Of a stretch of 39,868 nucleotides of DNA, positions 24,773 through 39,867 are shown in pieces. A program made the position numbers and the translations under genes. Under the pieces are notes generated by a model. That model ran no database searches. It was given only the letters and a program-made list of their open reading frames with translations, and was not told the origin of the DNA. Positions within the stretch are counted from its first letter, which is position 1, and each line of letters opens with the position of its first letter. Source of the stretch: Nitrospina sp. (GTDB lineage: Bacteria; Nitrospinota; Nitrospinia; Nitrospinales; Nitrospinaceae); assembly GCA_020430445.1 (NCBI GenBank), contig JAGQJZ010000018.1, positions 1 to 39,868 on the forward strand. Direction: 5' to 3'.

Positions 24773-25831
24773 TCAGATGCGATCTTTCAGAACCTGAAAC
24801 CGGATGGAGGAAGCGGTGACGCGGCTGCGTCCCATGTAGTAGAGGGTCAGCATCCACAGGCCGTCGAGGAACAGCAGGCAACTGGACTGGCTGAAGACGT
24901 GGAATCCCCGGAAGAGGTCGAGGCTCCGGCCCGCCGGAGTTTGCAGCAGCAGGGACAGAACAGCGCCATAGGCGATGGATGCGAGGCCGAGCACCTGGTA
25001 GGCGGTGAGGCGGCCCGAGCCACGGTGGTCCGAACGCAGGAACTCGGACAGGACCCGCCAGCCCTGCGACAGGACGAGCGCCGTCAAAAACGCGGCCCGG
25101 GTGTGGCCGGCAAACAACAGCGCGAGGGAGACCATGCCGGTGGTCACCAGGATCAGCGCGGTCATTCCCTGAATGGGCACCACCGGCACCCCCTGCCAGC
25201 CCTGCGCGTAGGCGATTTTTTTCGTTTCTCCCTGGAACACGAAATGAAATCTGCCGAGAAGCTGTCGCAGCCAGGGGGGGCTGTCCTCCAGCCGTTTGCC
25301 ATAGCAGCAGCCAAAACTGATACACGCCATGCGGCCGATGCCCTCGCCGAAGGTATACGCGATCATCAAAACCGCCATCGCCGTCAGCGGATCAAGGGCG
25401 GCCTCCCCGGCGGGGCCGGAGATTCGGTTGATTAAAATAACGCCGGGCCAGACGGCTGCGAGACCGACGGCAAAGGCCCCTCCCGTCGTGAAGGTGTTCG
25501 CCTTTCGCTCGATCACTCTGGCGATGATCCGCGCCGCGGGCAAAGCCAGTGTCATGATCCACGCGACCAGTAGAAATCCGTTCAGCGTATTCCATCCGAG
25601 ACTCCCGTTGAGCAGGATGAATAATGCCGCCGAAGCCGATACGGCGTTGGCGGTCAGGAGGCCGTACCAGGTGATGTTGAGACCGGTCCAGGTTCCGTCT
25701 TCCCGCTTGTGCACCGGGATCGCCGCCAGCATTTGCCGGGATTCCTCGGGAAGGTTTTTGAATCCCCACCCCAGATACCCCAGGCAGGCGACGAACAGCA
25801 GCAGCAGGAAAACCGTTTCCGGAAGCGTCAT
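24773..25831 (-). CDS. Lgt-like (prolipoprotein diacylglyceryl transferase family) membrane protein
   Basis: A 352-residue polytopic membrane protein with about seven hydrophobic segments. Residues 161-179 (FGEGIGRMACISFGCCYGK) match the core of the Lgt family, where the conserved Arg binds phosphatidylglycerol, and VVPIQGMTALILV follows at the expected distance. The HGG motif of true Lgt is not obvious, so I read it as an Lgt-like paralogue rather than the housekeeping lgt. It starts four bases after the phosphatidylserine decarboxylase stop, with AAGGA upstream, so the two are translated together. A lipid head-group or diacylglyceryl transfer role fits this neighbour. Confidence 0.75.
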   Translation of the reverse strand: MTLPETVFLLLLFVACLGYLGWGFKNLPEESRQMLAAIPVHKREDGTWTGLNITWYGLLTANAVSASAALFILLNGSLGWNTLNGFLLVAWIMTLALPAARIIARVIERKANTFTTGGAFAVGLAAVWPGVILINRISGPAGEAALDPLTAMAVLMIAYTFGEGIGRMACISFGCCYGKRLEDSPPWLRQLLGRFHFVFQGETKKIAYAQGWQGVPVVPIQGMTALILVTTGMVSLALLFAGHTRAAFLTALVLSQGWRVLSEFLRSDHRGSGRLTAYQVLGLASIAYGAVLSLLLQTPAGRSLDLFRGFHVFSQSSCLLFLDGLWMLTLYYMGRSRVTASSIRFQVLKDRI

Positions 25832-25835
25832 GATC

Positions 25836-26891
25836 CTATTCCTTCTCCCAGGCGGCGCCGATTTCGGAGCGGACTTTCACATCGGTTTCCACCAGCGGCT
25901 TGCCGAAGCTCCGGCTGAAGCGGCTGCTCGCCCAGGGGTGCCGCTGATTGAACAGCAGGCGGGGATTGAACTGCATGCGGCCTTTTTCAAACAGCAGCAC
26001 CGTGGTGCTGCTGCCCGGACGGAACAGGCTCTTCGGCTGGCCTTTTTTCAGGAACATGCCGGGCGTGACCGGCTGCGGGTCGTCGTAACCTTCCGCCGAG
26101 TAGCTTTGCAGGATGTCGCCGATCATCAGCGCCACCACCTCGATCATGGCGACCCGGCCCACGCCCGTGCCGCCGGGCACGTCGGTGTCGAGGATCGTCA
26201 CCGAGCGTTTGTTCTTGGAATACGGCGTCACCAGCAGGATCACAGCCGACGGGTTGCACGAATGGTAGCGCCCCGGGATGTCGTAGGCATCCAGCACGGT
26301 TCCGGAAACCGGGACGTGGTTGTAGTGGTACTTTTCCGGCGTCAGGCGAAAGATGGCGATGTTGCCGCCGCGAAAAGTCTCGAGCCATTCGGGCTTGTCG
26401 GCGGCCAGCAGTTCCTCGTACTCGAAAAACTTGTTTTTGATTTCAAACAGGCAGTGATCGTTGAGTGAACCGATGAGGACGCGGGAGTCCGCCGGTGAAA
26501 CAATGACGGCATCTCCCGGCGGCATGGGGCGCGTTTCCCAGTAACGGATTTTGCGTTCAAACACCTTGCGCGGCGTGTCCAGACGGTGGGGGGGCTCCAC
26601 GCATTCGGCGAGGTCGATGCGGTTGTTTTGGAGCCAGCGCCTTTGTCCCGAAAGACGCGCCCCCAGAAGCGTTTCAAAATTCAGCATGCCGAGCAGGTGC
26701 GACATGCGGGATGCGGTCACCGCCCGGTACATCCAGGGCATGCGTTCCCGGAGCTCGGAATAAACAAAGCGGATCACGGGGTCGCCGAACAACTGTTCGG
26801 TCAGGACCTCGCCGGTTTCGCTGTCAATATACTGATGCGCGGGCGCCGGATGGGGCGGTTGCGAGTGCACGGTCGGATTGTTCCCGTTCAT
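25836..26891 (-). CDS. psd: Phosphatidylserine decarboxylase
   Basis: The enzyme converts phosphatidylserine to phosphatidylethanolamine using a pyruvoyl group made by self-cleavage. Visible signatures are SPADSRV (D135), the His-rich segment KYHYNHVPVSG (H189, H192) and, near the C-terminus, RPGSSTTVLLFEKG. Processing would occur at G293-S294 in a GSS form of the usual GST site. The 351-residue length with a long N-terminal lead fits the larger membrane-associated PSD type. Its start overlaps the end of the unrecognised upstream gene by 68 bases, implying translational coupling. The overlapping N-terminus is His/Pro-rich and low in complexity. No other PSD pathway gene (pssA) is in the window. 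Confidence 0.93.
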   Translation of the reverse strand: MNGNNPTVHSQPPHPAPAHQYIDSETGEVLTEQLFGDPVIRFVYSELRERMPWMYRAVTASRMSHLLGMLNFETLLGARLSGQRRWLQNNRIDLAECVEPPHRLDTPRKVFERKIRYWETRPMPPGDAVIVSPADSRVLIGSLNDHCLFEIKNKFFEYEELLAADKPEWLETFRGGNIAIFRLTPEKYHYNHVPVSGTVLDAYDIPGRYHSCNPSAVILLVTPYSKNKRSVTILDTDVPGGTGVGRVAMIEVVALMIGDILQSYSAEGYDDPQPVTPGMFLKKGQPKSLFRPGSSTTVLLFEKGRMQFNPRLLFNQRHPWASSRFSRSFGKPLVETDVKVRSEIGAAWEKE

Positions 26892-29175
26892 AGGTGAATG
26901 TCCAGAGAAGAAGTTTCATCAGCACCTCCAGGCGGACCGGATTGAGGGTGCCTTGCCGGAGGTGTTGCAGCGTTTCCTGGAAGCGCAGGCCTCCGCGCCC
27001 GCCCTGGGTCTGGCGCAGGAAGGCGGGTTCGTGTTGTTGGACGTGGCGGCTGAGGGGCGAGTTGAATTTGAATCCCTCCTGCAGAATCTCAAGCCCTTCG
27101 GCAATGTGTCCCAGCCGGAGCGAGTCGCGGTAGACCTTCTCGGCGGCGAGATTGAATTCTTCCGCCGACAGTTTGAAAGGGTGGCGGACGCCGGTGTCCT
27201 GCAGAATGCGCCGGTTGAGTTTGCCAAACGCCGACGCCTTCTCCGGCTCCCGCACCCGGAGCGCCAGGTCCTCCAGGGTGCCCTCCAATCCGAGGAGGGC
27301 GACCAGGTCGCCGGCTTCCCGTTTGAGGAACTCCAGGCACGAGCGGCGGTATTCGGCCACGTGCACGCGCGTGTATCCTGTGTAGCGGCTGCTCAGGCGG
27401 ACGCGCGCGGCGGGGCGGATCAACTGTTTGAGAAAGATATTCGGCGAATGGCTGCGGATGAAAAACGTGGGCAGGCCAATGGCGGAGGCAAAGGCGATCT
27501 GCCGGCGTTCGCTTTCGGCAAACGGGAGGTCCGGAATCGACCGTGGCGTGACGCGGCCCGTGGCCACCAGGCGCACCGCCATGAGCAGGATCAGTTGCTT
27601 CAGGTTGGCGGCGCCGCCCAGGTCCTCGCCCAGGTTTTCGAACAGGGAAAAGAAGCGGCTTTCGAATCCCGAGTACCCGATGACCGACCGGATGCGCTGG
27701 CGGCAGAACAGGTACAGCGGCATTTTTTCGTGGAACACGCCGAGGTGCATGAGGTCCTTGGCCAGCCGCTCCTGGTTTCCCGGCTGGCCGTCCAGCGCCG
27801 GGCAGCCCTCGGTGCTCATCAGGCAGACGAGGTAATCGAGAAGACGCCAGTCCGGAACGTAGTCGCCGCGCAGTCCGAAGACGGCGCGGATGGTCGAGTC
27901 GAGCCAGACCGGTCCGAAGGGCGTGATGGGTTTCTGGAAAACTTTCAGCTTTGCCTTTTTCTTCCAGCGCCGCCAGATCATGCGCAGATGCGTGTAGTGC
28001 AATTCGTGCGCGAGAAAGCCCAGGGCCTTTTCCGGATGGAAGTCCATGAAGTCCAGCCGGTAGGGCGCGGCGCTGTACAGCCCGACGAACAGCGGCAGGA
28101 AATGCTCGTAGATCTTGATCACAAGATCGCCGGCGTATTTTTCATGCGCCGGTGTGAATCCCGAATGGGGATCGGCCAGCGCGGCTCCGAGGAGGCGGCT
28201 GCCCAGGCTCAAATGGGTTCCGTTGTTGGCCAGGCTGATGTTGGAAATATTGGGCAGCGTGATGAGGTTGTGAGTGAGGATGCCGGATTCGCGCAGCTTG
28301 GTGAGCGTGTTGAGCTGGCTGCGGCTCAGCACTTCGTGGCAGAGCGCCATGTAGGCGTGCTTGTCTTCGCCGCAGTCCCAGCCGGACAGGCAGGGGCTCA
28401 TGAACAATTCACGGTAAAACGAATCGGGGATGCACTCGTTCAACAGTTTCTGGCGGATGGGAGCGTGCGGTGAAAAAAAGACCGCGGTCTCCTGCCCCAG
28501 TTCCTTCAGCCTGAAGGACTGGTCCGCGTGGTGCACCAGAAGCTGGGTGAACAAAAACCGCAGGGCCTTTTCGCGCACGACCGCTTTGCCGCAGCCTCCT
28601 GTTGAATGCGGCACCTGGATGTAAAAGGAATGGGTTTCGGGCGATGTGTTGTCGTTTAGAAAATGATCGAGCAGGCGCAGGCCCGTCTTGCGGCAGGGGT
28701 CGGGAAGATTCGAAACCCGGCCCAGAAAATCGGCCAGGGACAGTTTGAGCAGGTAACTGACGGGAATCCTCAACCAGGGTTCCTCTCCCTTGTAGAACAG
28801 GAAGCGGTCGATGTCTTTTCTCGAGGCGGACTGCGGATCGTTTTTACTTTCTTTCAGGTCGCGGTCCAGCACCTGACGCGCGAAGGGTGACAGGCGTTGC
28901 AGGGGAAAGCGCACCCAGCTGTTTTCCCACACCTGCTCCTGGTTGTCGGACAGGTACGATTCGATTCCGGTGATGGCGCGGGATGTGGTCTCGCCCGTCT
29001 TGCAACGCTGAACGACATTGGAGAAAAAACTGGACTGCCCGATCGCCAGCGGCAGGTCGACGCTGCCGGCCGGTCCCTTGACGGCGGTCTGCAGTTCGCT
29101 TTCGGACCCGGCGGTGGTGTCGTTGCGGGAAAAGGGAAGGGTTTCGATGAGCCGTTCCGGGCTGGAGAAGTCCAC
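26824..29175 (-). CDS. Large protein of unknown function (783 residues from GTG; possibly longer)
   Basis: I do not recognise this family. The protein is soluble-looking, rich in Leu, Arg and His, without signal peptide or clear membrane helices. Notable stretches are HSFYIQVPHSTGGCGKAVVR, LAHELHYTHLRMIWRRWKKK (first His at residue 390) and LPTFFIRSHSPNIFLKQLIR. The first standard start in frame is GTG at 29175, but it lacks a properly spaced ribosome site and the frame stays open upstream to a TAA near 29340. A CTG at 29289 has AAGGGA six bases before it and would add 38 coding-like residues (KHVSVLPDLNFSRIQPEKD...). Its 3' end overlaps psd by 68 bases, so it belongs to the same operon and may act on phospholipid or envelope metabolism. 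Confidence 0.8.
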   Translation of the reverse strand: MDFSSPERLIETLPFSRNDTTAGSESELQTAVKGPAGSVDLPLAIGQSSFFSNVVQRCKTGETTSRAITGIESYLSDNQEQVWENSWVRFPLQRLSPFARQVLDRDLKESKNDPQSASRKDIDRFLFYKGEEPWLRIPVSYLLKLSLADFLGRVSNLPDPCRKTGLRLLDHFLNDNTSPETHSFYIQVPHSTGGCGKAVVREKALRFLFTQLLVHHADQSFRLKELGQETAVFFSPHAPIRQKLLNECIPDSFYRELFMSPCLSGWDCGEDKHAYMALCHEVLSRSQLNTLTKLRESGILTHNLITLPNISNISLANNGTHLSLGSRLLGAALADPHSGFTPAHEKYAGDLVIKIYEHFLPLFVGLYSAAPYRLDFMDFHPEKALGFLAHELHYTHLRMIWRRWKKKAKLKVFQKPITPFGPVWLDSTIRAVFGLRGDYVPDWRLLDYLVCLMSTEGCPALDGQPGNQERLAKDLMHLGVFHEKMPLYLFCRQRIRSVIGYSGFESRFFSLFENLGEDLGGAANLKQLILLMAVRLVATGRVTPRSIPDLPFAESERRQIAFASAIGLPTFFIRSHSPNIFLKQLIRPAARVRLSSRYTGYTRVHVAEYRRSCLEFLKREAGDLVALLGLEGTLEDLALRVREPEKASAFGKLNRRILQDTGVRHPFKLSAEEFNLAAEKVYRDSLRLGHIAEGLEILQEGFKFNSPLSRHVQQHEPAFLRQTQGGRGGLRFQETLQHLRQGTLNPVRLEVLMKLLLWTFTYEREQSDRALATAPSGARASVY

Positions 29176-29386: not shown

Positions 29387-30772
29387 TCAGTTTTCCTGGG
29401 AGACGGCCGCAGGCGGGAGGAACCGGGCGAGGGTTTCCTCGACGAGACGGCGAATCTCCAGCAGCCGTTCGCCCGTCTGGGCTTCAAAACGTAGGGTCAG
29501 TGCCGGCTGGGTGTTGGAAGCGCGGACCAGGGCCCAGCCGTCTCCAAAGTTGACGCGCACGCCGTCGATGTCGACCAGTTCATAGCGGGAGCTGAGATGG
29601 CGGCGCAGGTTTTCCACCACCGTGAACTTGGTTTCGTCGGGGCAGTCGATGCGGATTTCGGGAGTGGTGGCCGTCTCCGGCAGGCCGCCCAGCATTTTCG
29701 AAAGCGGCAGAGGGGAGTCGGCCAGTATCCGGAGCAGACGACAGGCGGCGTACAGCGCGTCGTCGAAGCCAAAATATTCATCGGCGAAAAAGATGTGGCC
29801 GCTCATCTCTCCGGCCAGCAGCGCGCCGGTTTCCTTCATTCTTTTTTTGATCAGGGAATGGCCCACGGCGGTCATCTCCGCCCGGCCGCCCTGCTTGTTG
29901 ATCTCGTCGAACAGGCTTTGCGAACATTTGACCTCGCCCAGGATGGCGGACCCCGGATGCCGCGTCAGCAGGTCGCGGGCGAACAGGATCATGAGCTGAT
30001 CGCCCCAGACGATGTCGCCGTTTTCGTCGACCACGCCGATGCGGTCCATATCGCCGTCGAACCCGATGCCCAGCTCCGCGCCTTCCTCTTTGACGCGGGC
30101 GATGAGGTCGACCAGGTTCTCCGGCAGGGTCGGGTCCGGGTGATGGTTGGGAAACGATCCGTCCGGCTCGGTGTACAGTTCAATCGGTTGCAGGCCCAGG
30201 TTGCGCAGCACACGCGGACCGACGATGCCGAAACAACCGTTGCCCCCGTCGACCACCACTTTCACCGGGCGCGAGAGGGCGAGTGAATCCTGCAGGTGGG
30301 CCGTGTAGGGTTCGATCACATCCACCGTTTTGATGGACCCGCCGCCGGTGTTTATAAAATCCCCGTCTTCGGCGATCCGGCGCAGGGTTTGAATTTCCGG
30401 ACCCAGCAGACACTCGCGCCCGAGACTGACTTTGAATCCATTGAAGCTGGCGGGGTTGTGACTGGCGGTGACGATGACGCCGCCGTCGGAATCGAAATGG
30501 TGTTGGGCGAAGTAGGAAACGGGAGATGGGATCTGGCCCACTTCAATGACATCGCAGCCGCAGGACTGAAGCGCGTGGGCGAGGATGTCGCGGTATCCCG
30601 GGGAACTGGGGCGGATGTCCCAGGCCAGGGTGATGGTGCGGCCCTTGTTCCGGCGCAGGAAGGTGCCGATGGCCCTGCCGATCGATTCGACGGTTTCCGG
30701 GGTGAGGTCGGTGCCGACCACACCCCGGATGTCGGATTCGCGAAAAATGGCCGGATTGATTCCAGGCGTCAT
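29387..30772 (-). CDS. Phosphomannomutase/phosphoglucomutase (AlgC/ManB type)
   Basis: A 461-residue alpha-D-phosphohexomutase interconverting hexose 6- and 1-phosphates for GDP-mannose or UDP-glucose supply. The phosphoserine loop is VTASHNPASFNG (S104). The metal loop is FDGDMDRIG (D239, D241, D243). The sugar-binding loop is AGEMSGHIFF, and the C-terminal phosphate-binding loop reads VRASNTQPALTLRF. Full length and apparently active. It starts 20 bases after the amphi-Trp protein 1 gene, so it appears to be part of the GAK-type operon. It could feed the glycosyltransferase at the far end. No clear ribosome site precedes the ATG. Confidence 0.94.
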   Translation of the reverse strand: MTPGINPAIFRESDIRGVVGTDLTPETVESIGRAIGTFLRRNKGRTITLAWDIRPSSPGYRDILAHALQSCGCDVIEVGQIPSPVSYFAQHHFDSDGGVIVTASHNPASFNGFKVSLGRECLLGPEIQTLRRIAEDGDFINTGGGSIKTVDVIEPYTAHLQDSLALSRPVKVVVDGGNGCFGIVGPRVLRNLGLQPIELYTEPDGSFPNHHPDPTLPENLVDLIARVKEEGAELGIGFDGDMDRIGVVDENGDIVWGDQLMILFARDLLTRHPGSAILGEVKCSQSLFDEINKQGGRAEMTAVGHSLIKKRMKETGALLAGEMSGHIFFADEYFGFDDALYAACRLLRILADSPLPLSKMLGGLPETATTPEIRIDCPDETKFTVVENLRRHLSSRYELVDIDGVRVNFGDGWALVRASNTQPALTLRFEAQTGERLLEIRRLVEETLARFLPPAAVSQEN

Positions 30773-30792
30773 AACAGATGAATGCGGAAAGC

Positions 30793-31092
30793 TTATTCGC
30801 CGTTGCCGTTTTCACCGACCGCAACCGGCTCGGTGGCGGAGATGCTGAATTCCGGCTCTTCCTCTTCCTTGTCGGCGCGCCAGCTCAACTCCAGCGACAG
30901 GCGTTCCTTGCTTTTCTTGATGGAAGCCTCCAGTTCAACTTCGATGTAATTGGAGGGTTTCAGGGTCACGATGTCGGTTCCCTGCTGAACGCAGATGGTG
31001 CCTTCCTTCATGCTTTTGATCAGGTCTTCGAGGTAGCTGATGACCTTGCTCTGCTCGAATTTCGCTTTGAGAGAAACTTCTCTTTTATCCAT
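30793..31092 (-). CDS. Amphi-Trp domain protein 1 (acidic tail)
   Basis: A 99-residue protein with the amphi-Trp domain: an N-terminal amphipathic helix (KVISYLEDLIKSMKEGTICV), a strand LKPSNYIEVELEASIKK, and the closing RLSLELSWRA with W71. After the domain comes a strongly acidic tail (DKEEEEPEF...GENGNGE). GGAGG lies five bases before the ATG. It is placed directly after the HprK-related kinase, the arrangement for which the ATP-grasp/amphi-Trp/kinase neighbourhood is named. The biochemical role is unknown; a small substrate or carrier protein for the kinase or ATP-grasp enzyme is a hypothesis. Confidence 0.85.
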   Translation of the reverse strand: MDKREVSLKAKFEQSKVISYLEDLIKSMKEGTICVQQGTDIVTLKPSNYIEVELEASIKKSKERLSLELSWRADKEEEEPEFSISATEPVAVGENGNGE

Positions 31093-31112
31093 GTTGTCCT
31101 CCAGGTTATGAA

Positions 31113-32195
31113 TTAAAGACCTTTCAATTGTTCAATGCAGGTGTCCACGGCCCGGTTGAAGTCCACCCCACCGGTGATTTCAAGGACGGGACACCCGCGT
31201 AACTGGTTCAGATAGGCGTCTGTTGAGAAATCCGGCTCCTGTCCGGGGCCGGGCTGGTAGAACAGTCCCGGACTTTTCATGAACGCCGGCAGCAGGTCGC
31301 GCCGGTTCCAGAGGTCCACCCGGTTGAAAATGGGATCCTTGTATTCGTGGTCCCAGTTCAGGATGACGATCAGGTTGATCGGCGAATGCAGGTGGAACCG
31401 GTCGGGCCCGTAACACTGGTCGATGTAGACATCGTATTTGTGTTCCAGGTGCCACAGTTTTTCAAGGGGCATAGCTTCCATGCGGCTTTTTTCGGACGGC
31501 GAGAGGATGGTCTGCAGGTCCGGATTGTTCAAAGCGGTCCCGGGATTGATGCGGGGCAGTTTGGGAACGCCCCACATGTTGAGTCCCCCGTCCTTCTGCT
31601 CGATCAAGAGGCGGTCGTTGCTGATGAAATTGAAACCGCGGCTCATGAGGTGGAGCGCCAGGGTGGATTTGCCCATGCCTGAAAAGCCGGCCATGGCGAT
31701 TCCCTTGCCGTCCAGGGAAACCCCGGCGCCGTGCGCCAGCAGCATGTTCCGGTTGAGCATCCATTCAATAAACCGGTTGTTGATGAAGTTGATCACCTGA
31801 TTGTCGTTTTCGAAACATGGTCCCACCGCAAGGTTGAGTCCCTTGCCGAAGACGAAGCACATTCCGGTCAGGCGCTTGCGCACCAGCCGTCCGTCTCGGA
31901 AATCGTGGTACTCCTCTTTGATCTTGCGCTTGCCCGGCTCGGGATGGCGGACTTCAAAATCGACATTGAATTCCGGAATTTCCGCATCCACCGCGGCGAT
32001 TTCAATATCCGCCTCGGCCGTCTCCTCGCCGTGGAAGTCCTGAAAATAATGGATGAGGTGATCGCGCAGGGGTTCCGAGTTGGTTTGCACGCGAATGCGG
32101 CAGTCTCCAAACTGGAGATTCAGGCTGTGTGGAACGTTATGAAGGTATTTGTAAAAATCAGCGATTTCCATAGCGGTATATTCGATCTCAGGCAT
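31113..32195 (-). CDS. HprK-related kinase B (GAK-type system)
   Basis: A 360-residue P-loop kinase of the HPr kinase/phosphorylase superfamily. The Walker A motif is GFSGMGKST (residues 170-178, K176), preceded by LLAHGAGVSLDGKGIAMA and followed by GFNFISNDRLLIEQ, where the Asn-Asp takes the place of the HprK acidic residues. The N-terminal ~140 residues are specific to the B-type relatives. The start overlaps the end of the ATP-grasp gene by eight bases, with GGAGGC upstream, so the two are coupled. Real HprK phosphorylates HPr on Ser46; no HPr gene is near, so the substrate is probably different, with the amphi-Trp proteins as candidates. Confidence 0.9.
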   Translation of the reverse strand: MPEIEYTAMEIADFYKYLHNVPHSLNLQFGDCRIRVQTNSEPLRDHLIHYFQDFHGEETAEADIEIAAVDAEIPEFNVDFEVRHPEPGKRKIKEEYHDFRDGRLVRKRLTGMCFVFGKGLNLAVGPCFENDNQVINFINNRFIEWMLNRNMLLAHGAGVSLDGKGIAMAGFSGMGKSTLALHLMSRGFNFISNDRLLIEQKDGGLNMWGVPKLPRINPGTALNNPDLQTILSPSEKSRMEAMPLEKLWHLEHKYDVYIDQCYGPDRFHLHSPINLIVILNWDHEYKDPIFNRVDLWNRRDLLPAFMKSPGLFYQPGPGQEPDFSTDAYLNQLRGCPVLEITGGVDFNRAVDTCIEQLKGL

Positions 32196-33084
32196 TGTTC
32201 AACGCCTCCAAAACATGGTCGACATAAAGCTCCGCGGCGTTCAGGCCGTGGGCATCTTTTAATCCCTTGAATCCGCCAAACGCGGAAACTTCAAAAACCA
32301 GAGGGCCCTCGGGAGCTTCCACAAGATCCACGCAGGTGAAATCCAGTCCGAAAGGCTCCTGGGCTTTGCGTGCCAGTTCGATGATGGCCGGGGTCGGCTC
32401 ATAGGGTTCATAATGCCCGCCGGAGCGGGTGGTGGTGTTCCAGGAGTCGGCCTGGGCCACGCGTGCGTAGGTGGCGAGGTACTGGCCACCGAGAAACGCG
32501 ATCCCAAGGTCCTTGCCGGGCACCTGGATCCACTTCTGCATATAGAGAGTGCGGTTGCCGGCCGCACGGTAGTCTTCCAGTTTGGGGCGGATGCCGTTGT
32601 TCTCTTCCAGCACCACCATGCCCCGGGCCTTGGAGGTGTAGAGCGGCTTCAGTATGCATTTCCCCATGCGCTGGACGGCCTCTTCGGCCAAGTCCAGGTT
32701 TTCGGTGACCAGGGTCTGCGGGATGGGGATGTTGGCCTGGCGCAACTGGTTGGTGCAGCTCAGGCGGTCGAGCACTTTGTGGATGCTGCCCGGACGGGAG
32801 AACACGCGCACGCCGCAATGCTCGACGAACTTGAGCACCTCCAGCCGGTTGAGCAGGTCGGGCGAGTATTCCGCGCCCAGTTTCTTGATGATCAGCGCGT
32901 CGAGGTCCAGCAGGTTGTGATCCCCGTAGAGGACCTTTCCCCGGTTCATGTCGAACAAAACATTTTCCAGGTCGATCAGCAGGCGAAAGCCGGTTTTCTT
33001 TTCGATCACGTCTGCGAGGTGGTCCGAGGACCACATGCCGGGAATCCCGATGACGCCGATGCGTGGTGAAGACTGTTGTTCCAT
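32188..33084 (-). CDS. ATP-grasp enzyme of the GAK-type system (RimK-like)
   Basis: A 298-residue ATP-grasp ligase-like protein. Features are the N-terminal Rossmann-like start (RIGVIGIPGMWSSDHLADVI), the ATP-binding lysine region GKCILKPLYTSKARGMVVLE and the C-terminal metal-binding region GLDFTCVDLVEAPEGPLVFE with VSAFGGFKGL. The overall pattern resembles RimK, which adds amino acids to protein C-termini. AAAGGA lies before the ATG. It is ten bases downstream of the PhoU-kinase fusion and overlaps the HprK-related kinase. The substrate is unknown. Ligation of a residue or cofactor onto an amphi-Trp protein would be a testable idea, by analogy to RimK only. Confidence 0.88.
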   Translation of the reverse strand: MEQQSSPRIGVIGIPGMWSSDHLADVIEKKTGFRLLIDLENVLFDMNRGKVLYGDHNLLDLDALIIKKLGAEYSPDLLNRLEVLKFVEHCGVRVFSRPGSIHKVLDRLSCTNQLRQANIPIPQTLVTENLDLAEEAVQRMGKCILKPLYTSKARGMVVLEENNGIRPKLEDYRAAGNRTLYMQKWIQVPGKDLGIAFLGGQYLATYARVAQADSWNTTTRSGGHYEPYEPTPAIIELARKAQEPFGLDFTCVDLVEAPEGPLVFEVSAFGGFKGLKDAHGLNAAELYVDHVLEALNNA

Positions 33085-33094
33085 AAGATTTCCT

Positions 33095-34780
33095 TTAATA
33101 GACCAGAACGTCCCGGGGAATCGTGAACTGTTCCCAGGGCTGACCCCGGTAGCCCATCAGTTTTTCCATCAGGTACACCGCCCGGAGCAGCATGGTGGAG
33201 GCGAACTCCTTGTTGAACTCGAACCGCGTCGAAGTGGTGAACGAGCGAATGAGCCCCAGCGCCAGCCGGGCTTCGAAGGTCGGGTCTTTCTGGTTTTTGG
33301 CGAACTGTTGACCGAAGTCGTACATGTTCAGCGCCATCTGGTTGATGTTTTTGCGTATGCGGCTGACGAACACGGGCAGGCGGAAGTTAGACAGGATGAA
33401 TACCGAGATATCCTGCACGTAATCCTGATGCCGCGAACGGTGCAGGTCGATGAAATGAATCACGCCTTCGGCTTCGTCGTAAAGCACGTTGTCGATGTTG
33501 AAGTCGCCATGGATCAATACGGAAAAGGGGGCGCCGCCGATTTCATCCTCGATTCGGTGGGTCTGGTCGAGCAGGGCGTTGAGCGACAGGGTGCGGTGGG
33601 TGCCGATCTGTTTTTCGAGCAGCTTGAAGTCCGGATGCGCCCGGAAAATATCGTCGATCCGCTGATTGGTCTGGTTGATGTAGTGGGCGTGAACCGGTTT
33701 GTTCTTTTTAGATCGCGTCCACAGGTCTTCCAGGTCGTGCGTCAACTGTTTCATCGCCCGGTCGAGGAACCGGTTGTTGGATTCCAGCAGCCCTTTTTGC
33801 AGCGTCGTGCCGTTCAAAAACTCCAGCAGGATGGAAGCGGACTTTCCGTTTTTGTTGAAACCGAAAACACGCGGCGGAAGGCCGGGTTTCATTTTTTCCA
33901 GAAGCTGGATGTTTTTGTTTTCCTGCTCCAGTTTGTCGACCTGGCCTTCCTTGAAAATGACCCCGGTCTCCTGATCGGCTTTTTCCTGCCCCTGAATGCG
34001 GTTGATGCGGCAGCCGGATTTGGTTTCCAGAAAGGATTCGATGCTGAGGTTGGTGATGGGGCCATGGATGTCGATGTTTTCCATGGAATCTTCCAGCGCT
34101 TCGATATGGCTGATCTTCAACTTTTCCCCCACCCCGGCGAAGATGATGGCCTCCCCGATGTTGAGCAACTGGTCGCCCATGCGTTCGAGGTAACGCAGGA
34201 TGAACAGCGAAGTGACCAGGTTTTCCACCTCGTTGCCCTGGCGCAGGTCGTCCATGATCAGTTTGAACTGCTCGGCGAAAATATCGTCGATGCGCTGCTC
34301 CGACCGGCAGATTTTGAATGCCTGGTTGATGTCCTGTTTGCGAAGCGACCGTTCCACCAGTTCCAACGATGAGGTGACTTCGTCGAACAAAGATTTGTAA
34401 TCGAATTTATGCAGGAACAACGGGTTGTCCAGATACTGCAACTGGGAAATGATATTGACCGAAAAATCCGCGATTTTCTCCAGATTCGCGGTGATGATGT
34501 TGATGGCCCGGATCAGGTCCAGCTCACGTTTCCCGAGATTGGCTTTGAGGTTACTGTAGAAGCATTTGTTCTCAATGAGGCTTTTGAGATTATCGATATA
34601 GTCGTCGCGCGTCAGGATCTTATTCTGCAGCTTGCCCTCGGGCTGATCGAGAACCAGACGGGTGTCCTCCACCTGCTTCTGCACTTCGAGGATCAGTGTT
34701 TTGAAGTTCCGGTCTATTCCGTGATTGGACAGGATGCCTTTTTTTTCGATTTCTTTTTTTGCCATGGAGGGTGTTTCCAT
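33095..34780 (-). CDS. PhoU-like domain fused to an APH-type phosphotransferase
   Basis: A 561-residue two-part protein. Residues ~20-210 form PhoU-like helical repeats (LDLIRAINIITANLEKIADF and LFILRYLERMGDQLLNIGEA, the ERxxD-type metal motifs of PhoU). Residues ~250-540 are an aminoglycoside-phosphotransferase/choline-kinase-like domain: PRVFGFNKNGKSASILLEFL and the catalytic VLIHGDFNIDNVLYDEAEG (H424, then D and N), followed by IHFIDLHRSRHQDYVQDISV (Mg-binding Asp). The fusion suggests a small-molecule kinase controlled by a phosphate-signalling-type domain. The ATG directly abuts the TAG of the amphi-Trp 2 gene; a second ATG lies five codons later. It is in the middle of the GAK-type operon. 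Confidence 0.85.
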   Translation of the reverse strand: METPSMAKKEIEKKGILSNHGIDRNFKTLILEVQKQVEDTRLVLDQPEGKLQNKILTRDDYIDNLKSLIENKCFYSNLKANLGKRELDLIRAINIITANLEKIADFSVNIISQLQYLDNPLFLHKFDYKSLFDEVTSSLELVERSLRKQDINQAFKICRSEQRIDDIFAEQFKLIMDDLRQGNEVENLVTSLFILRYLERMGDQLLNIGEAIIFAGVGEKLKISHIEALEDSMENIDIHGPITNLSIESFLETKSGCRINRIQGQEKADQETGVIFKEGQVDKLEQENKNIQLLEKMKPGLPPRVFGFNKNGKSASILLEFLNGTTLQKGLLESNNRFLDRAMKQLTHDLEDLWTRSKKNKPVHAHYINQTNQRIDDIFRAHPDFKLLEKQIGTHRTLSLNALLDQTHRIEDEIGGAPFSVLIHGDFNIDNVLYDEAEGVIHFIDLHRSRHQDYVQDISVFILSNFRLPVFVSRIRKNINQMALNMYDFGQQFAKNQKDPTFEARLALGLIRSFTTSTRFEFNKEFASTMLLRAVYLMEKLMGYRGQPWEQFTIPRDVLVY

Positions 34781-35074
34781 CTACTTGATTTTCTTTTTTC
34801 CCGGTTTGATTTCCAGAAGGTCCTGTCCCGCTTCGCGGCTGTCCTTGTCTTCGACCCAGCTGATTTTGACCGACACTTTGACTTCCTTGTTTTTGCGCCG
34901 GGCTTTGACCGACAGGTTCAGCAGGCCGTGCGGTTCCAGAATCAGTTTCTTTTTACGGGTGCCGAACAGGATGCGGCCGTTTTCGAATCCGTCCAGCAAC
35001 GCCTGCAGGTAGTTCCGGATGGACTCGGTGTCCTGAATGGACTCGTGGCGGAACTCATCATCCATAGAAGCCAT
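34781..35074 (-). CDS. Amphi-Trp domain protein 2 (basic tail)
   Basis: A 97-residue paralogue of the other amphi-Trp protein: amphipathic helix SIRNYLQALLDGFENGRILF, then LILEPHGLLNLSVKARRK and KVSVKISWVED with W73. It ends in a basic tail (EIKPGKKKIK), in contrast to the acidic tail of paralogue 1. GGGAGAGGT lies just before the ATG. It is 120 bases after the PHP-family gene and its stop codon abuts the start of the PhoU-kinase fusion. Function unknown. Confidence 0.83.
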   Translation of the reverse strand: MASMDDEFRHESIQDTESIRNYLQALLDGFENGRILFGTRKKKLILEPHGLLNLSVKARRKNKEVKVSVKISWVEDKDSREAGQDLLEIKPGKKKIK

Positions 35075-35194
35075 ACCTCTCCCTTCGTTGTAAAGCGCAC
35101 CCCGGCACCGGGGAAAAGCAAAGCTTTCCCCTTCCCCTGCCAGAGGGCTTTTTGCAAATTGGAATTTTAGAACCTAATCCGTCAGGACATCGGC

Positions 35195-36397
35195 CTAGTT
35201 GAGCCGTGCCACATATTCTTCGATCAGCTTGCCGCGGTCGGTGTTGGCCACGATGAGGCTCTTTCGAATCGCCAGGTCGTCCCACGCCGGCTGGTAGCCC
35301 ACCTCGCGGCTGACCTTTTCGCGGTTCTGGCACTGCGGCTCCTTGATCTTCTCGCTCAGATGGCAGTCGTCGCCCATGAAGATCAGGATCGGCCGCTGGC
35401 CGCGCAAATGAGTTTTATTTTTCTGATTGACCACGTTGATCAGAAATTCGGTGAATTCCTGTGACTGGGGATTCCACACCTCGATGCCATCGACATCGTA
35501 TTCCGCCAGCAGGATCGGCCAGAACTGTTCGGGATGCGGGATGACGATGCCGCCGCCGAGCATCCGCGTCTCTTCTATGAATTCCTCGATGGAATAAAAG
35601 TAATCCGGACTGAAATGCTTTTTAACGATCTTCTTCACCTTCTGGATCAGGAACTGAGCCCGTTTGATCAGGCGCTCGTCGTAGAACTCCAGCAACTGGT
35701 CGAAATAGTTTGCCAGCAGTTTGTTCTTGATATGGTCCTGTGGCGTCACCGATTCGTGTTCGAGCAGGAGTTTTTCCAGCTTCCGCGTGTACACCTTGAC
35801 GAAACGCAGCAGGTCCTCGTCGGCTCCGTAGAGCTTGCCCGCTTCCTGCAGCCGGTGGTCGAGGTTGGGATCGACGATGGAATGGATCAATTCGAACAAC
35901 TGACTGGAACGGTAGCGCAGGGTGTGCTTCAGCATGGACTTGAGCACATCGGCCTTTTCCACCTTTGAGTTTTCGAAATGCAGGAGGATTTGCACCTTGC
36001 GGTTGAACGGCTTGGCGAAGCAGTCCACCTCGACACCCGTATGTTTACCGTCGTAGCAGTTGAGAATATTATGATTGGTCGGAATGATCAGTTCGCGCGA
36101 CTTGTTCGGGAACATGGTGTTGACCCGTTCGCGGATCAATTCCATGGGAATGAATTCGGGATGCCAGTGCATCGCCACCACCGTGTCCTGCCGCGAGTAA
36201 GTTTTTTTGGGGACCCGGATGCGCTCCTGCTGTATTTCCGTCAGGTCGATGGTGGTGATCCGGCGGTAGGACTGATAGTCCCACTCGGTCAGGTCCTCTG
36301 AAATGTTTTCAGGAATTTCCAAAGGGCGCGTTTTGTTTTCCTGCGCCGGTTCCAGCTTCAGGAACTGGAGGTCGGATGAGTCTTCTGCGATTTTCAT
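35195..36397 (-). CDS. PHP-family metal-dependent phosphoesterase-like protein, first gene of the GAK-type operon
   Basis: A 400-residue protein with PHP-type metal-ligand motifs in the right order: AMHWHPEF (H77, H79), IIPTNHN, GVEVDCF, VIPHPEQFWP (H288), GIEVWNPQ and FMGDDCHLSEK (D344, H346). PHP domains hydrolyse phosphate esters or anhydrides with two or three metals. The central ~130 residues between GVEVDCF and VIPHPEQ are a helical insertion (VYTRKLEKLLLEHESVTPQD) not usual in small PHP enzymes. GGGAG precedes the ATG at seven bases. It opens the operon, so it may remove phosphates placed by the kinases downstream. Substrate unknown. Confidence 0.82.
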   Translation of the reverse strand: MKIAEDSSDLQFLKLEPAQENKTRPLEIPENISEDLTEWDYQSYRRITTIDLTEIQQERIRVPKKTYSRQDTVVAMHWHPEFIPMELIRERVNTMFPNKSRELIIPTNHNILNCYDGKHTGVEVDCFAKPFNRKVQILLHFENSKVEKADVLKSMLKHTLRYRSSQLFELIHSIVDPNLDHRLQEAGKLYGADEDLLRFVKVYTRKLEKLLLEHESVTPQDHIKNKLLANYFDQLLEFYDERLIKRAQFLIQKVKKIVKKHFSPDYFYSIEEFIEETRMLGGGIVIPHPEQFWPILLAEYDVDGIEVWNPQSQEFTEFLINVVNQKNKTHLRGQRPILIFMGDDCHLSEKIKEPQCQNREKVSREVGYQPAWDDLAIRKSLIVANTDRGKLIEEYVARLN

Positions 36398-37329
36398 GGG
36401 AAAACTCCCGGAAAGGTTTTGTCAGGTGAAATTGTTGCGGAGGGCAATTCCATAAAGGTACACGTTGCTCACTTTTAAAATCCGGCAAGACCGGTTGGCG
36501 TGGTGCAGATGGTTTATTATGGCGAAATTCAAAGATTAAAAAGTTAGGAACGTATTTGTTTTTGATTAGGGCGGAATTCCGCCGCAATCACGCGGACATG
36601 CCATTGCCATGGAAAGAAAAAAAGGCGGGGAAGACGTGAGCCGGGAAAACGCCAACCCCGGAAATAAATGCCTGATCACAACCGTCTCATTCCAGTATAA
36701 CGCTGGGCAAATCCATTCGGGTAGAAAAAACAATCCCGTGCTTTTTCCTGCTGTGCAGGAGGACAAGAGGGATTTCCGGACGGGCGGTGTGCGGACAATG
36801 CCGATTCTTCTGGAAAAAATATGGGAAGAATCAATCCGTGCGACCCCCCCCAAGGGACCTTGCGGGATTCGCGGACACGATTTCAACTTCTTGACCGGTA
36901 TTCCCAACGAGAACTTCGCATAACGCGGAAAAACCTTCGAGGCCTCTGGCGCTCAGTATGACGCCGCAGTGTTTGATTGTCATTCTGAGGGGCTTAAGAC
37001 CCGAAGAATCTCGCGCTGGACGTTCGCTTTTGATTTTTGCAAAGCTCTTATTGCCACCGGCCAAACTTCACCCGGCTCAGCCGGGGATTCGAAAGATTCT
37101 CCGCGAAAAAACAACCCTGCCCGCGCCCGGGACTGAGCCTGATACCGGGAAATATGTTGAAAATTTTTCCATCCCGTTTTTACACCTCCCGCTTTTCGAT
37201 CTGCGCGGATAAAAATTTGAGATTTAATGGCAAACAGGATTCGAGAGGACTAAATTTATTTAGAGACTAAAAGTGGAGGGGGTGATTGGCTTAGCAAGCG
37301 ATTTTTGCTTTCATTTCATGAGGTCTGTT
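36398..37329. other. 932-base intergenic region with no supported gene
   Basis: This region separates the GAK-type operon (leftward) from the rightward HDO-like gene and must hold both promoters. It contains a 14-bp perfect palindrome GGCGGAATTCCGCC at 36570-36583 and the second MITE-like element at 36907-37056. Two longer open frames (36609-36923 plus, 36566-36907 minus) overlap each other, have no ribosome sites and no family resemblance. No tRNA or riboswitch was recognised. Confidence 0.6.
36907..37056. mobile_element. MITE-like non-autonomous element, copy 2 (short form)
   Basis: About 150 bp with ends matching copy 1. The left end GAGAACTTCGCATAACG with GGAAAAACCTTCGAGG agrees with 5600-5633 of copy 1 at roughly three quarters of positions. 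The right end (37028-37056) reads TGATTTTTGCAAAGCTCT against TGACTTTTGCAAAGGTCT in copy 1. The ends are inverted repeats of each other (AAGAGCTTTGCAAAA type). The interior is different and shorter. No transposase frame is present. Confidence 0.6.
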
Positions 37330-38163
37330 ATGGAAAAAGACAACCCCGAGTTTCTCCAATTCTGGGAAACCGTTCAAACGCGTATCCACAGCCACCCCGT
37401 CATCGTCGACAACACTTACTGCCAGTGGTTCAGCGAAGGCAATTTCAATCAATCCCAACTGATCGATCTGTTCGAACAATTCGCGGTTTTTTCAAAATGG
37501 TTCCTGCTGGTGCAGATGATGCGTCTTTTGAACGCAGGCGACCTGGATTCGGAAACGCACGCGCGTTACATTCTGGCCAATGAACTGGGAGTCGGGATCA
37601 AGCCGGACGGCACCACGGAGGACCAGCCCTTCCACACTTCCTGGGCGCATATCAATTGGTTGCGGAATACCGCCCAACCCCTGGGATTGGACGGCCAGCG
37701 GCTCGGCAGTTGGGAAACCGCGTCCCTTTCCACACGAAAATTCATCAAAGGCCTGGAAGAAACCTACGGCAACCGGGACAGCGAGGTGGGCCGCGGCGCC
37801 AGTTACGCCATCGAAACCTGGGCGGCATGGGGCATCGGCAAGGGGCCGGAAGAGGAATCCCACAACTTCTGGAAACAGTTGATCCTCGGGCTGGAAGCCT
37901 ACAACCGGAGGTTGGAGCAAAATAAAATTCCGTTGGACTTTTTTGAATTCCATTTCCAAAGTGAAAAAGGGCACGGCGACAACGTGCTCGAGGAATTGAA
38001 AGAAGCTTTTTATAACCCCGGATTCCGGGCGGAAACGTTTCTGCGCGCAGGGGAGAAAGCGCTGAACGCCATTCACATTTTCTGGCTTGGACTGAACGCC
38101 AGCCGAATGAGTTCGGCGGAAGCAGAACAGCCGTTCCACCAGGCCGCCGGACTCTGGACCTGA
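37330..38163 (+). CDS. Heme-oxygenase-like (TENA/PqqC/HDO superfamily) iron-containing protein
   Basis: A 277-residue all-helical protein of the heme-oxygenase-like superfamily. Candidate metal ligands occur in HARYILANELGVG (E85), FHTSWAHINWL (H102, H107), SYAIETWAAWG (E162) and FFEFHFQSEKGHGDN (H208, H215). This arrangement resembles HDO diiron oxidases/oxygenases more than the cofactorless PqqC. The ATG at 37330 is chosen because TGAGG lies six bases upstream; a GTG 19 codons earlier has no ribosome site. The reaction is unknown. It is convergent with the 2-keto acid decarboxylase and shares its terminator. Confidence 0.8.
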   Translation: MEKDNPEFLQFWETVQTRIHSHPVIVDNTYCQWFSEGNFNQSQLIDLFEQFAVFSKWFLLVQMMRLLNAGDLDSETHARYILANELGVGIKPDGTTEDQPFHTSWAHINWLRNTAQPLGLDGQRLGSWETASLSTRKFIKGLEETYGNRDSEVGRGASYAIETWAAWGIGKGPEEESHNFWKQLILGLEAYNRRLEQNKIPLDFFEFHFQSEKGHGDNVLEELKEAFYNPGFRAETFLRAGEKALNAIHIFWLGLNASRMSSAEAEQPFHQAAGLWT

Positions 38164-38214: not shown

Positions 38215-39867
38215 TTAACTGGTTTTCCGGATCCTGCGTCCGATCTCCTCCGCCAGTCGCCGCATGCCACGCGAAGACTCCGTCACCACGGCATCGATCA
38301 CGTACATTGCTTCCGGGTCCGCCAGCGCGTTATCCAGCGCGGTTTGAAACTCCACATACGTTCCGGCCTGAAACGATTTTCCGTACTGGATCATGCGGCA
38401 CACGGCGCCGTAATCCCAGTTGGCGATATCGTTGAACTCCCCATCGAGGATGACGCGCTCGGTCTCGTAGCCGCCGTTGTTGATGACGATGACGATGGGC
38501 GTTAGCCCCAGTTTTTTGTAGGTGGAAAGCTCGGTTCCCGTCATCTGGAACGCGCCGTCACCGACGAGGATCAGGGGACGGACCTCCGGCGACGCGCAGT
38601 TGACACCGAGGGCCGCCGGCACGGCAAAGCCCATGGTCGTGTAATACGCCGAAGCGAAGAACGCCGTTTTGTCCGGCACCTGCAGTTCGGCGGCGGCAAA
38701 CAGGCAGTCGCCCGTGTCGCAGATCACGGCCAGGTCGGGCGTGAGTTTCTCGTTGAGAAGGCGGATGATGCCGGTCGTCGTCAGGGCGTTTGCCTCGTCC
38801 GTGCCATGGCCGTTGTTGTGGTCGGGAGATTCCGCACGCAAGCTCCAGCGGTTTTCCATGGACCTCAATTCGGCGGCAAGGCCGAGCACGTAATCCTTCA
38901 GCGTGATTCCGGGAAACTTGTGATGCTTGATCGTCACCTCGCCCTGGTTGACCTGGATCATGCGGTTGATGTCCAGCTTGGCCGTGTACATGCCGAGGTT
39001 GATGTCGGTGAACATCACGCCCAGTGCCAGCACCAGATCCGAATCTTCAATCACCGCCCGAGCGTTCTCGGACCCCACCATCCCCTGGTAGACTCCCTGA
39101 TACAGAGGGTTGCGTTCGTGGAATACCGTTTTCCCCATGATGGTGGCCGCCACCGGCAGCCGCGCGCTTTCCGCCAAACGAACCAGATCGTTCTGCACGT
39201 TGTAGCGGTGCAGCTGCACACCGGCGAGAATGACCGGTGACCGGGCGTTCTTCAACAATGCGACCGATTCCGCCAGGGCTTCTTTCAGGGTCGCCGGATC
39301 GCTTGACGGGTACTGGCAAAGGGGTTCGTGATTCGATTGCGGATCGATTTCACAGTCGATCATGTCCCGGGGCAGTTCCAGGTAGCCGGGCTTCTTTTGA
39401 ATCCAGACCTGTTCGATCACCTCGTCGATGCACCGGGCGGCGTTTTGAACGTTCTGGATGGAAGCCGCCGCGCAGGTGAAGTTTTCAAATATTTTCCTCT
39501 GCGCGTCCTTTTCGCCGAAAGAATGGTGGATCATGGAATGATCCCGCCGTTCCTGCACTCCGGGAGCCCCGCTGATCACCAGCACGGGAGACGATTCCGC
39601 GTTGGCTCCGGCGATCGGATTGACCGTACTCAGGGCTCCAACACCGTGCGTGACCAGCACCACGCCCAGTCCGTTGTGCCGGCGCGCGTACCCGTCCGCC
39701 GCGAACCCGGCGGTGTCTTCCCGGGTGGTGCCGATGAAGGCGATTTTGTGCTCGCCTTCCAGCAACTGGCAGAATTTGAGACTGAAGTCACCCGGAACCC
39801 CGAACACATGGCGGACTCCCAGTTCATAGAGCCGCTGTATCAAATACGTTCCGATGGTGGACGTCAT
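38215..39867 (-). CDS. Thiamine-diphosphate 2-keto acid decarboxylase (pyruvate/indolepyruvate decarboxylase family)
   Basis: A 550-residue ThDP enzyme converting a 2-keto acid to an aldehyde and CO2. The start MTSTIGTYLIQRLYELGVRH is typical of the family, although the window ends one base beyond the ATG and its ribosome site cannot be seen. Catalytic residues are E50 (TREDTAGFAADGYARR) and the H114-H115 pair (SMIHHSFGEKD), both as in yeast pyruvate decarboxylase. The ThDP/Mg motif begins at VGDGAFQMTGTELS (D437) and ends with the NNGGYETERVI segment, whose Glu is the active-site acid. Substrate preference (pyruvate, indolepyruvate, branched-chain) cannot be fixed from the sequence. Confidence 0.93.
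   Translation of the reverse strand: MTSTIGTYLIQRLYELGVRHVFGVPGDFSLKFCQLLEGEHKIAFIGTTREDTAGFAADGYARRHNGLGVVLVTHGVGALSTVNPIAGANAESSPVLVISGAPGVQERRDHSMIHHSFGEKDAQRKIFENFTCAAASIQNVQNAARCIDEVIEQVWIQKKPGYLELPRDMIDCEIDPQSNHEPLCQYPSSDPATLKEALAESVALLKNARSPVILAGVQLHRYNVQNDLVRLAESARLPVAATIMGKTVFHERNPLYQGVYQGMVGSENARAVIEDSDLVLALGVMFTDINLGMYTAKLDINRMIQVNQGEVTIKHHKFPGITLKDYVLGLAAELRSMENRWSLRAESPDHNNGHGTDEANALTTTGIIRLLNEKLTPDLAVICDTGDCLFAAAELQVPDKTAFFASAYYTTMGFAVPAALGVNCASPEVRPLILVGDGAFQMTGTELSTYKKLGLTPIVIVINNGGYETERVILDGEFNDIANWDYGAVCRMIQYGKSFQAGTYVEFQTALDNALADPEAMYVIDAVVTESSRGMRRLAEEIGRRIRKTS

Follow-up and report, generated by a model that had tools for sequence, protein, structure and literature searches.

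Our analysis concerns a 39,868-nucleotide stretch of DNA (the window), contig JAGQJZ010000018.1 of an uncultured Nitrospina species in the phylum Nitrospinota, whose metagenome-assembled genome (MAG) comprises 3.3 Mb in 249 contigs and is 86% complete. Seven genes at positions 29387-36397 make up a GAK system and are listed here in their order of transcription, with bit scores set against NCBIfam cut-offs:

35195-36397, minus strand: putative PHP-superfamily phosphoesterase-like protein, 400 amino acids (metal motifs and fold)
34781-35074, minus strand: amphi-Trp A, 97 amino acids, directly upstream of PhoU-APH (TIGR04354, 62.9 bits, cut-off 31)
33095-34780, minus strand: fusion of a PhoU domain and an APH-type kinase (PhoU-APH), 561 amino acids (Pfam PF01895 and PF01636)
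32188-33084, minus strand: GAK-system ATP-grasp enzyme (grasp_GAK), 298 amino acids (TIGR04356, 432.9 bits, cut-off 300)
31113-32195, minus strand: HprK-related kinase B (HprK_rel_B, here HprK-B), 360 amino acids (TIGR04355, 510.1 bits, cut-off 200)
30793-31092, minus strand: amphi-Trp B, 99 amino acids (TIGR04354, 52.5 bits, cut-off 31)
29387-30772, minus strand: phosphohexomutase (PGM), PgmG/GlmM-like, 461 amino acids, a GAK-linked second copy (four PGM_PMM Pfam domains)

The locus is identified as a GAK system by three families that score above their NCBIfam cut-offs, lie adjacent to one another and co-occur across genomes. The original prediction, made from the letters alone, had described seven closely spaced leftward genes and had placed the kinase, the ATP-grasp enzyme and the amphi-Trp proteins in these families, and both descriptions hold: the gaps from PHP to PGM are 120, 0, 10, -8, 20 and 20 bases, HprK-B overlapping the ATP-grasp gene by 8 bases, and all of these proteins pass the family thresholds in hidden Markov model searches. 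Of the six proteins proposed for profile searching, amphi-Trp, HprK_rel_B, grasp_GAK, PhoU and APH were recovered in this way, whereas the PHP-like protein has no profile match and was placed by its fold and metal motifs. A search of the window against Rfam gave no match.

Six GAK ATP-grasps were aligned and 72 loci were then gathered from the genome collection; since the loci were collected through the ATP-grasp, systems that lack it are not visible in this survey. Open reading frames came from a script, and parsing errors therefore affect some loci where frames overlap; core-gene counts refer to loci with enough flank, co-occurrence counts are uncorrected for shared ancestry, and deep branches of the trees are weak. 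The loci span Thermodesulfobacteriota, Planctomycetota, Nitrospinota, Myxococcota, Zixibacteria, Spirochaetota, Actinomycetota, Pseudomonadota and candidate phyla, and their gene order hardly varies: PHP, amphi-Trp A, PhoU-APH, ATP-grasp and HprK-B, followed by a CofD-like protein and/or amphi-Trp B. Because this order recurs across many phyla, the gene set is not a chance assembly. PhoU-APH is present in 62 of 63 loci and is preceded by an amphi-Trp gene in 62/63, PHP is present in 56/63 and HprK-B in 51/53, and these proteins together with the ATP-grasp constitute the GAK core. The CofD-like protein (TIGR04357, 40/53) is a common, non-universal accessory, the XXXCH protein (TIGR04358, 24/63) is also an accessory, and a second amphi-Trp copy is common. 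The description of this locus as an expanded GAK system is rejected because the supposedly extra genes (PHP, PhoU-APH and the amphi-Trp beside it) are standard core.

The conserved co-occurrence expected by the original prediction is also seen at the level of whole genomes. The ATP-grasp, PhoU-APH, amphi-Trp and HprK-B are confined to the same six of 77 Nitrospinota genomes, five of which also carry PHP (G063 lacks it). Likewise, among 120 genomes from the order of Salidesulfovibrio, a Desulfovibrio relative, the 67 that carry the ATP-grasp are also the 67 that carry PhoU-APH, and in three of these genomes (G112, G121 and G135) the two genes are retained together though they are not adjacent.

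The first gene product has no Pfam or NCBIfam match, and its profile finds nothing significant among PDB sequences; the fold assignment came from structure. A Foldseek search with its AlphaFold2 (AF2) model (pLDDT 90.4) returned Vibrio RNase AM (9etk, E 3.3e-5) and BAD_1165 (3e0f/3o0f) as the sole PDB matches below 1e-3, with TM-scores (0.36-0.51) that are modest because of a long helical insertion at about residues 150-260. The candidate metal ligands H77, H79, H109, E123, D125, H140 and H288 are kept in 58/58 homologues, D344 in 56/58 and H346 in 57/58. The modelled fold and this set of His, Asp and Glu ligands place the protein in the PHP superfamily, with a predicted phosphoesterase activity. 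In some loci the PHP slot is filled by a histidine phosphatase (His_Phos) and a calcineurin-like phosphoesterase (Metallophos), as in L032/G063 and L058, or by relatives of both, as in L079; this exchange for other phosphatases in three loci therefore supports a phosphatase action of PHP.

In PhoU-APH, the PhoU (2.8e-22) and APH (3.5e-8) domains share a single open reading frame, the structural relatives of the PhoU part are 4q25 and 1t72, and E101, D105, E199 and D203 of PhoU as well as K277, E287, H424, D426, N431 and D445 of the kinase are conserved in 61-63 of 63 sequences. HprK-B aligns with Lactobacillus casei HprK and conserves the Walker A motif GxxGxGKS in 60-61 of 61 sequences, with S-N-D-R in place of A-D-D-R (S, N and D in 61/61). 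It was rejected as a true HPr kinase, as it fails both the signature motif and the cut-off of the HprK family TIGR00679 (39.4 bits, cut-off 240). As for the ATP-grasp enzyme, its nearest other families are RimK and MptN, all matches being below cut-off (MptN 159.6 bits), its PDB relatives are LysX and RimK, and E265-V-S267 replaces the usual E-x-N metal motif, the Ser being present in 66/66 sequences. Two further observations concern these proteins: a second PhoU-APH copy lies apart from the ATP-grasp gene in G111, G094, G149, G176, G155, G140, G164, G185 and G162, which belong to the order of L081, and a single 714-residue open reading frame in L096 (10867-13011) with HprK-B and CofD-like domains is a possible natural fusion.

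The amphi-Trp proteins fall into two groups defined by position, A (beside PhoU-APH) and B. The invariant Trp is kept in 126/128 aligned domains of both groups, and the C-terminal tails are variable. Group A carries the motif F-x-x-x-S-[LIM]-Q-D-x-x-[ST]-I (Ser in 61/64, Asp in 62/64); group B is without the S-x-Q-D motif and keeps the Trp and a basic strand. Against PDB sequences the family gives weak matches only (best E 0.25), and its AF2 model folds into a helix and four strands, and pLDDT exceeds 90 over most of the domain. Natural fusions join amphi-Trp to HprK-B (L031), to a calcineurin-like phosphoesterase (L079) and to XXXCH (L052, L067 and L087). The XXXCH proteins at L067:6075-6626 and L052:13703-14317 carry an amphi-Trp-like domain at the N-terminus, and their K-x-x-C-H-x-x-Y-K ending recalls a cytochrome c'-type end without the first Cys.

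Genes of the Pho regulon (pst, phoU, phoBR) are found in the flanking sequence retrieved for nine GAK loci from about six lineages, compared with an expected 0.4-0.8 (P for at least six = 4e-6 to 2e-4, using a simple Poisson background and assuming a 4-Mb genome). In L077 and L089, pstS-pstC-pstA is directly upstream of PHP. This link between GAK and the Pho regulon was absent from the interpretation in the original prediction. As a lead only, Dde_2835 of Desulfovibrio alaskensis G20, a phoU homologue that may be either an ordinary PhoU or the GAK PhoU-APH, has a strong late fitness effect under phosphate starvation (PMC5193443).

The unusual part of the GAK system in the window is its output end, where PGM replaces CofD and XXXCH. 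Neither TIGR04357 nor TIGR04358 has a match in the source assembly (86% complete) or in the one-contig sister genome G010 (96% complete), and the absence of both genes, pointed out by the original prediction, thus extends beyond the window. A GAK-linked second PGM copy is found in 6/6 GAK-positive Nitrospinota genomes, the others being 57-72% identical to the window PGM, whereas just one copy is present in each of seven GAK-negative relatives, the two matches in G033 being pieces of one gene (Fisher P 0.0006, without phylogenetic correction). PGM also adjoins GAK in L041 (anammox), L038 and L094. PGM and CofD never occur in the same GAK locus (P ~0.002 among the 53 loci with long flanks, uncorrected for ancestry). 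The nearest other family of the GAK CofD-like protein is YvcK; GlmR/YvcK is a uridyltransferase that makes UDP-N-acetylglucosamine (PMC10128056). That PGM is instead an unrelated neighbour, the operon stopping at amphi-Trp B, is in our estimate quite improbable. Its presence in only a minority of the surveyed loci and its divergent transcription in L029 and G004 would suit such a neighbour, but just 20 bases separate it from amphi-Trp B in the window, the linkage recurs in L041, L038 and L094 besides every one of the six GAK-positive Nitrospinota, the mutases of L038 and L094 are set apart from other PGMs by a very long branch in the tree, and the second copy is missing from the GAK-negative relatives.

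Taken together, we tentatively favour, at somewhat less than even confidence, a reading in which GAK is a cytoplasmic, phosphate-linked regulatory phosphorylation module that acts on or through amphi-Trp and has a sugar-phosphate output. HprK-B and the PhoU-fused APH kinase would phosphorylate the amphi-Trp proteins or clients that dock there, and Ser15 of amphi-Trp A, in the motif S-I-Q-D, is a candidate site. The PHP-type phosphoesterase, or elsewhere the histidine phosphatase and calcineurin-like phosphoesterase, would reverse the phosphorylation, and the PhoU domain may let phosphate status control the APH kinase. The ATP-grasp enzyme, of RimK/MptN-like lineage with an altered metal site, may make a second, ligation-type modification. 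The output would fall on hexose-1-phosphate and nucleotide-sugar metabolism, in most lineages through the YvcK/GlmR-related CofD-like protein and here through the dedicated phosphohexomutase. Single steps of this scheme have precedents in the response of HprK/P enzymes to inorganic phosphate (PMC2937029) and in HprK homologues that act on small linked peptides (PMC8498205). Directly in support are the composition and order of the system, its co-occurrence, the conserved residues of the kinase, PhoU and PHP sites, the slot swaps, the fusions and the Pho-regulon neighbourhood, and it is from these that we infer the reactions, the substrate role of amphi-Trp, the sensing of phosphate and the output. 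Judged from sequence, both kinases retain nucleotide-site residues and PHP retains its predicted metal ligands. The original prediction had proposed a modification cycle on the amphi-Trp proteins or on a small molecule that they carry; a kinase/phosphatase cycle fits the L031 and L079 fusions and the PHP-slot swaps in three loci, and the modification itself, of amphi-Trp or of a carried molecule, is putative. In a more specific version, amphi-Trp would be an HPr-like hub of phosphate-status signalling whose phosphoryl mark is placed by HprK-B and the PhoU-gated kinase and taken off by interchangeable phosphatases, and the flux of hexose phosphates and UDP-sugars would be the output, through the CofD/YvcK-like protein or the dedicated phosphohexomutase; this version appears unlikely to hold in full.

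Several observations weigh against a regulatory phosphorylation module. The canonical HprK signature E-[IV]-R-G-x-G is found in 0/61 HprK-B sequences and Asn takes the place of the first Asp of HprK, which leaves HPr-like chemistry of HprK-B uncertain; amphi-Trp B lacks a conserved hydroxyl nucleophile; and APH-type kinases often use small-molecule substrates. The L031 fusion of amphi-Trp to HprK-B is a single case from a MAG, has an internal Met at the join and could reflect a recent loss of a stop codon. A search for the PHO box with the E. coli consensus was negative, with one of 81 upstream regions at P<=0.05, and the ordinary phoU is not linked to GAK in the source genome or in G010.

Of the alternatives, the main one is that the product of GAK, newly made or salvaged, is a phosphorylated small molecule, which the APH and HprK-like kinases would phosphorylate, the ATP-grasp would ligate to an amino acid or other acid, PHP or another phosphatase would trim, and amphi-Trp would bind or carry. 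CofD superfamily enzymes transfer phospho-moieties, the usual substrates of APH enzymes are small molecules, MptN and RimK ligases are nearest to the ATP-grasp, PGM is a metabolic enzyme, and by fold the PHP-like protein comes closest to a nuclease and a phosphoesterase among PHP enzymes. However, no biosynthetic or transport genes, phosphate uptake aside, recur beside the core, where it is Pho-regulon genes and some signalling genes that recur, and this makes the alternative less likely. Moreover, the PhoU domain is present in nearly all systems and amphi-Trp is fused to both a kinase and a phosphatase; regulation is therefore favoured over small-molecule synthesis, which we regard as rather unlikely. 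Less expected still is a role of amphi-Trp as a scaffold or docking domain that is not itself a substrate and gathers the kinase, phosphatase and ligase on XXXCH, the CofD-like protein, PGM or another target. Its fusion to enzymes of opposite activity, its modelled fold of a helix and four strands, and the conservation of Lys and Trp without a conserved nucleophile in amphi-Trp B would all accord with this role, but the near-invariant Ser of amphi-Trp A, in S-x-Q-D beside the helix, is a plausible modification site.

Several neighbouring genes are also described here. Just downstream of GAK (24773-29175, minus strand) are a 783-residue protein that no Pfam model matches, a member of the phosphatidylserine decarboxylase family (PF02666) and an LGT-like protein (PF01790), and a trio of the same types is also found near GAK in L034 and L041. 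A GT4 glycosyltransferase at 23147-24592 clusters with long GT4s near GAK elsewhere, which are about 800 residues in length, about 400 of them in an N-terminal part that is unassigned (L100:768-3254, L077:15684-18164 and L055:4276-6678). On the other side, a divergent gene (37273-38163, plus strand) has a weak Haem_oxygenas_2 match (E 0.011), and the gene at 38215-39867 (minus strand) encodes a thiamine-pyrophosphate enzyme nearest to indolepyruvate/phenylpyruvate decarboxylase, below cut-off. In the Desulfarculaceae loci L052 (4159-6573) and L087 (2337-4676), EAL-CBS-GGDEF cyclic-di-GMP proteins lie upstream of GAK.

The literature searched contained no papers that name GAK or amphi-Trp, and nothing relevant on XXXCH/HprK-related or PhoU-domain/HPr-kinase combinations. 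GAK, known here by family names alone, is present in more than half of the 120 genomes sampled from the Salidesulfovibrio order and is scattered over many phyla. The definition of its core and its links to phosphate genes and sugar-phosphate enzymes provide testable predictions of the modified proteins, the relevant condition and the genes whose deletion has to be combined. If the favoured reading is true, phosphate signalling and HprK-type carbon signalling would be joined in one module.

In comparison with the GAK system of NCBIfam (TIGR04354, TIGR04355, TIGR04356, TIGR04357 and TIGR04358), the window has three families above cut-off and the gene order of other phyla, but its genome is without CofD-like and XXXCH genes and PGM stands at the operon end; in NCBIfam itself the PHP gene lacks a model and the whole PhoU-APH fusion is matched by none at cut-off, though both are core. 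The PHP-like protein shares its predicted fold and metal-ligand set with the phosphoesterases RNase AM and BAD_1165 and differs in its lack of a sequence-profile match and in its helical insertion. The alpha-L-glutamate ligases RimK and MptN are the nearest other families to the ATP-grasp, which misses their cut-offs and has E-V-S for E-x-N. HprK homologues of lasso peptide clusters (ThcoK, SyanK) phosphorylate a small linked polypeptide on Ser (PMC8498205), and GAK likewise pairs an HprK homologue with a small, genetically linked polypeptide; amphi-Trp, however, is a folded domain rather than a leader or core peptide, and there are no lasso genes nearby. HprK/P, whose activity is inhibited by inorganic phosphate and stimulated by fructose 1,6-bisphosphate (PMC2937029), has the Walker A motif and kinase core in common with HprK-B and is the top Foldseek match of the modelled L031 HprK-amphi-Trp fusion (1kkm, E 3.6e-7), whereas GAK has no HPr gene in its operon, S-N-D-R for A-D-D-R and no signature. 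Finally, the E-x-x-x-D motifs of PhoU, which acts in Pst-associated phosphate signalling, are also conserved in the GAK PhoU domain, which differs from ordinary PhoU in being fused to an APH kinase and is distinct from the phoU elsewhere in the genome.

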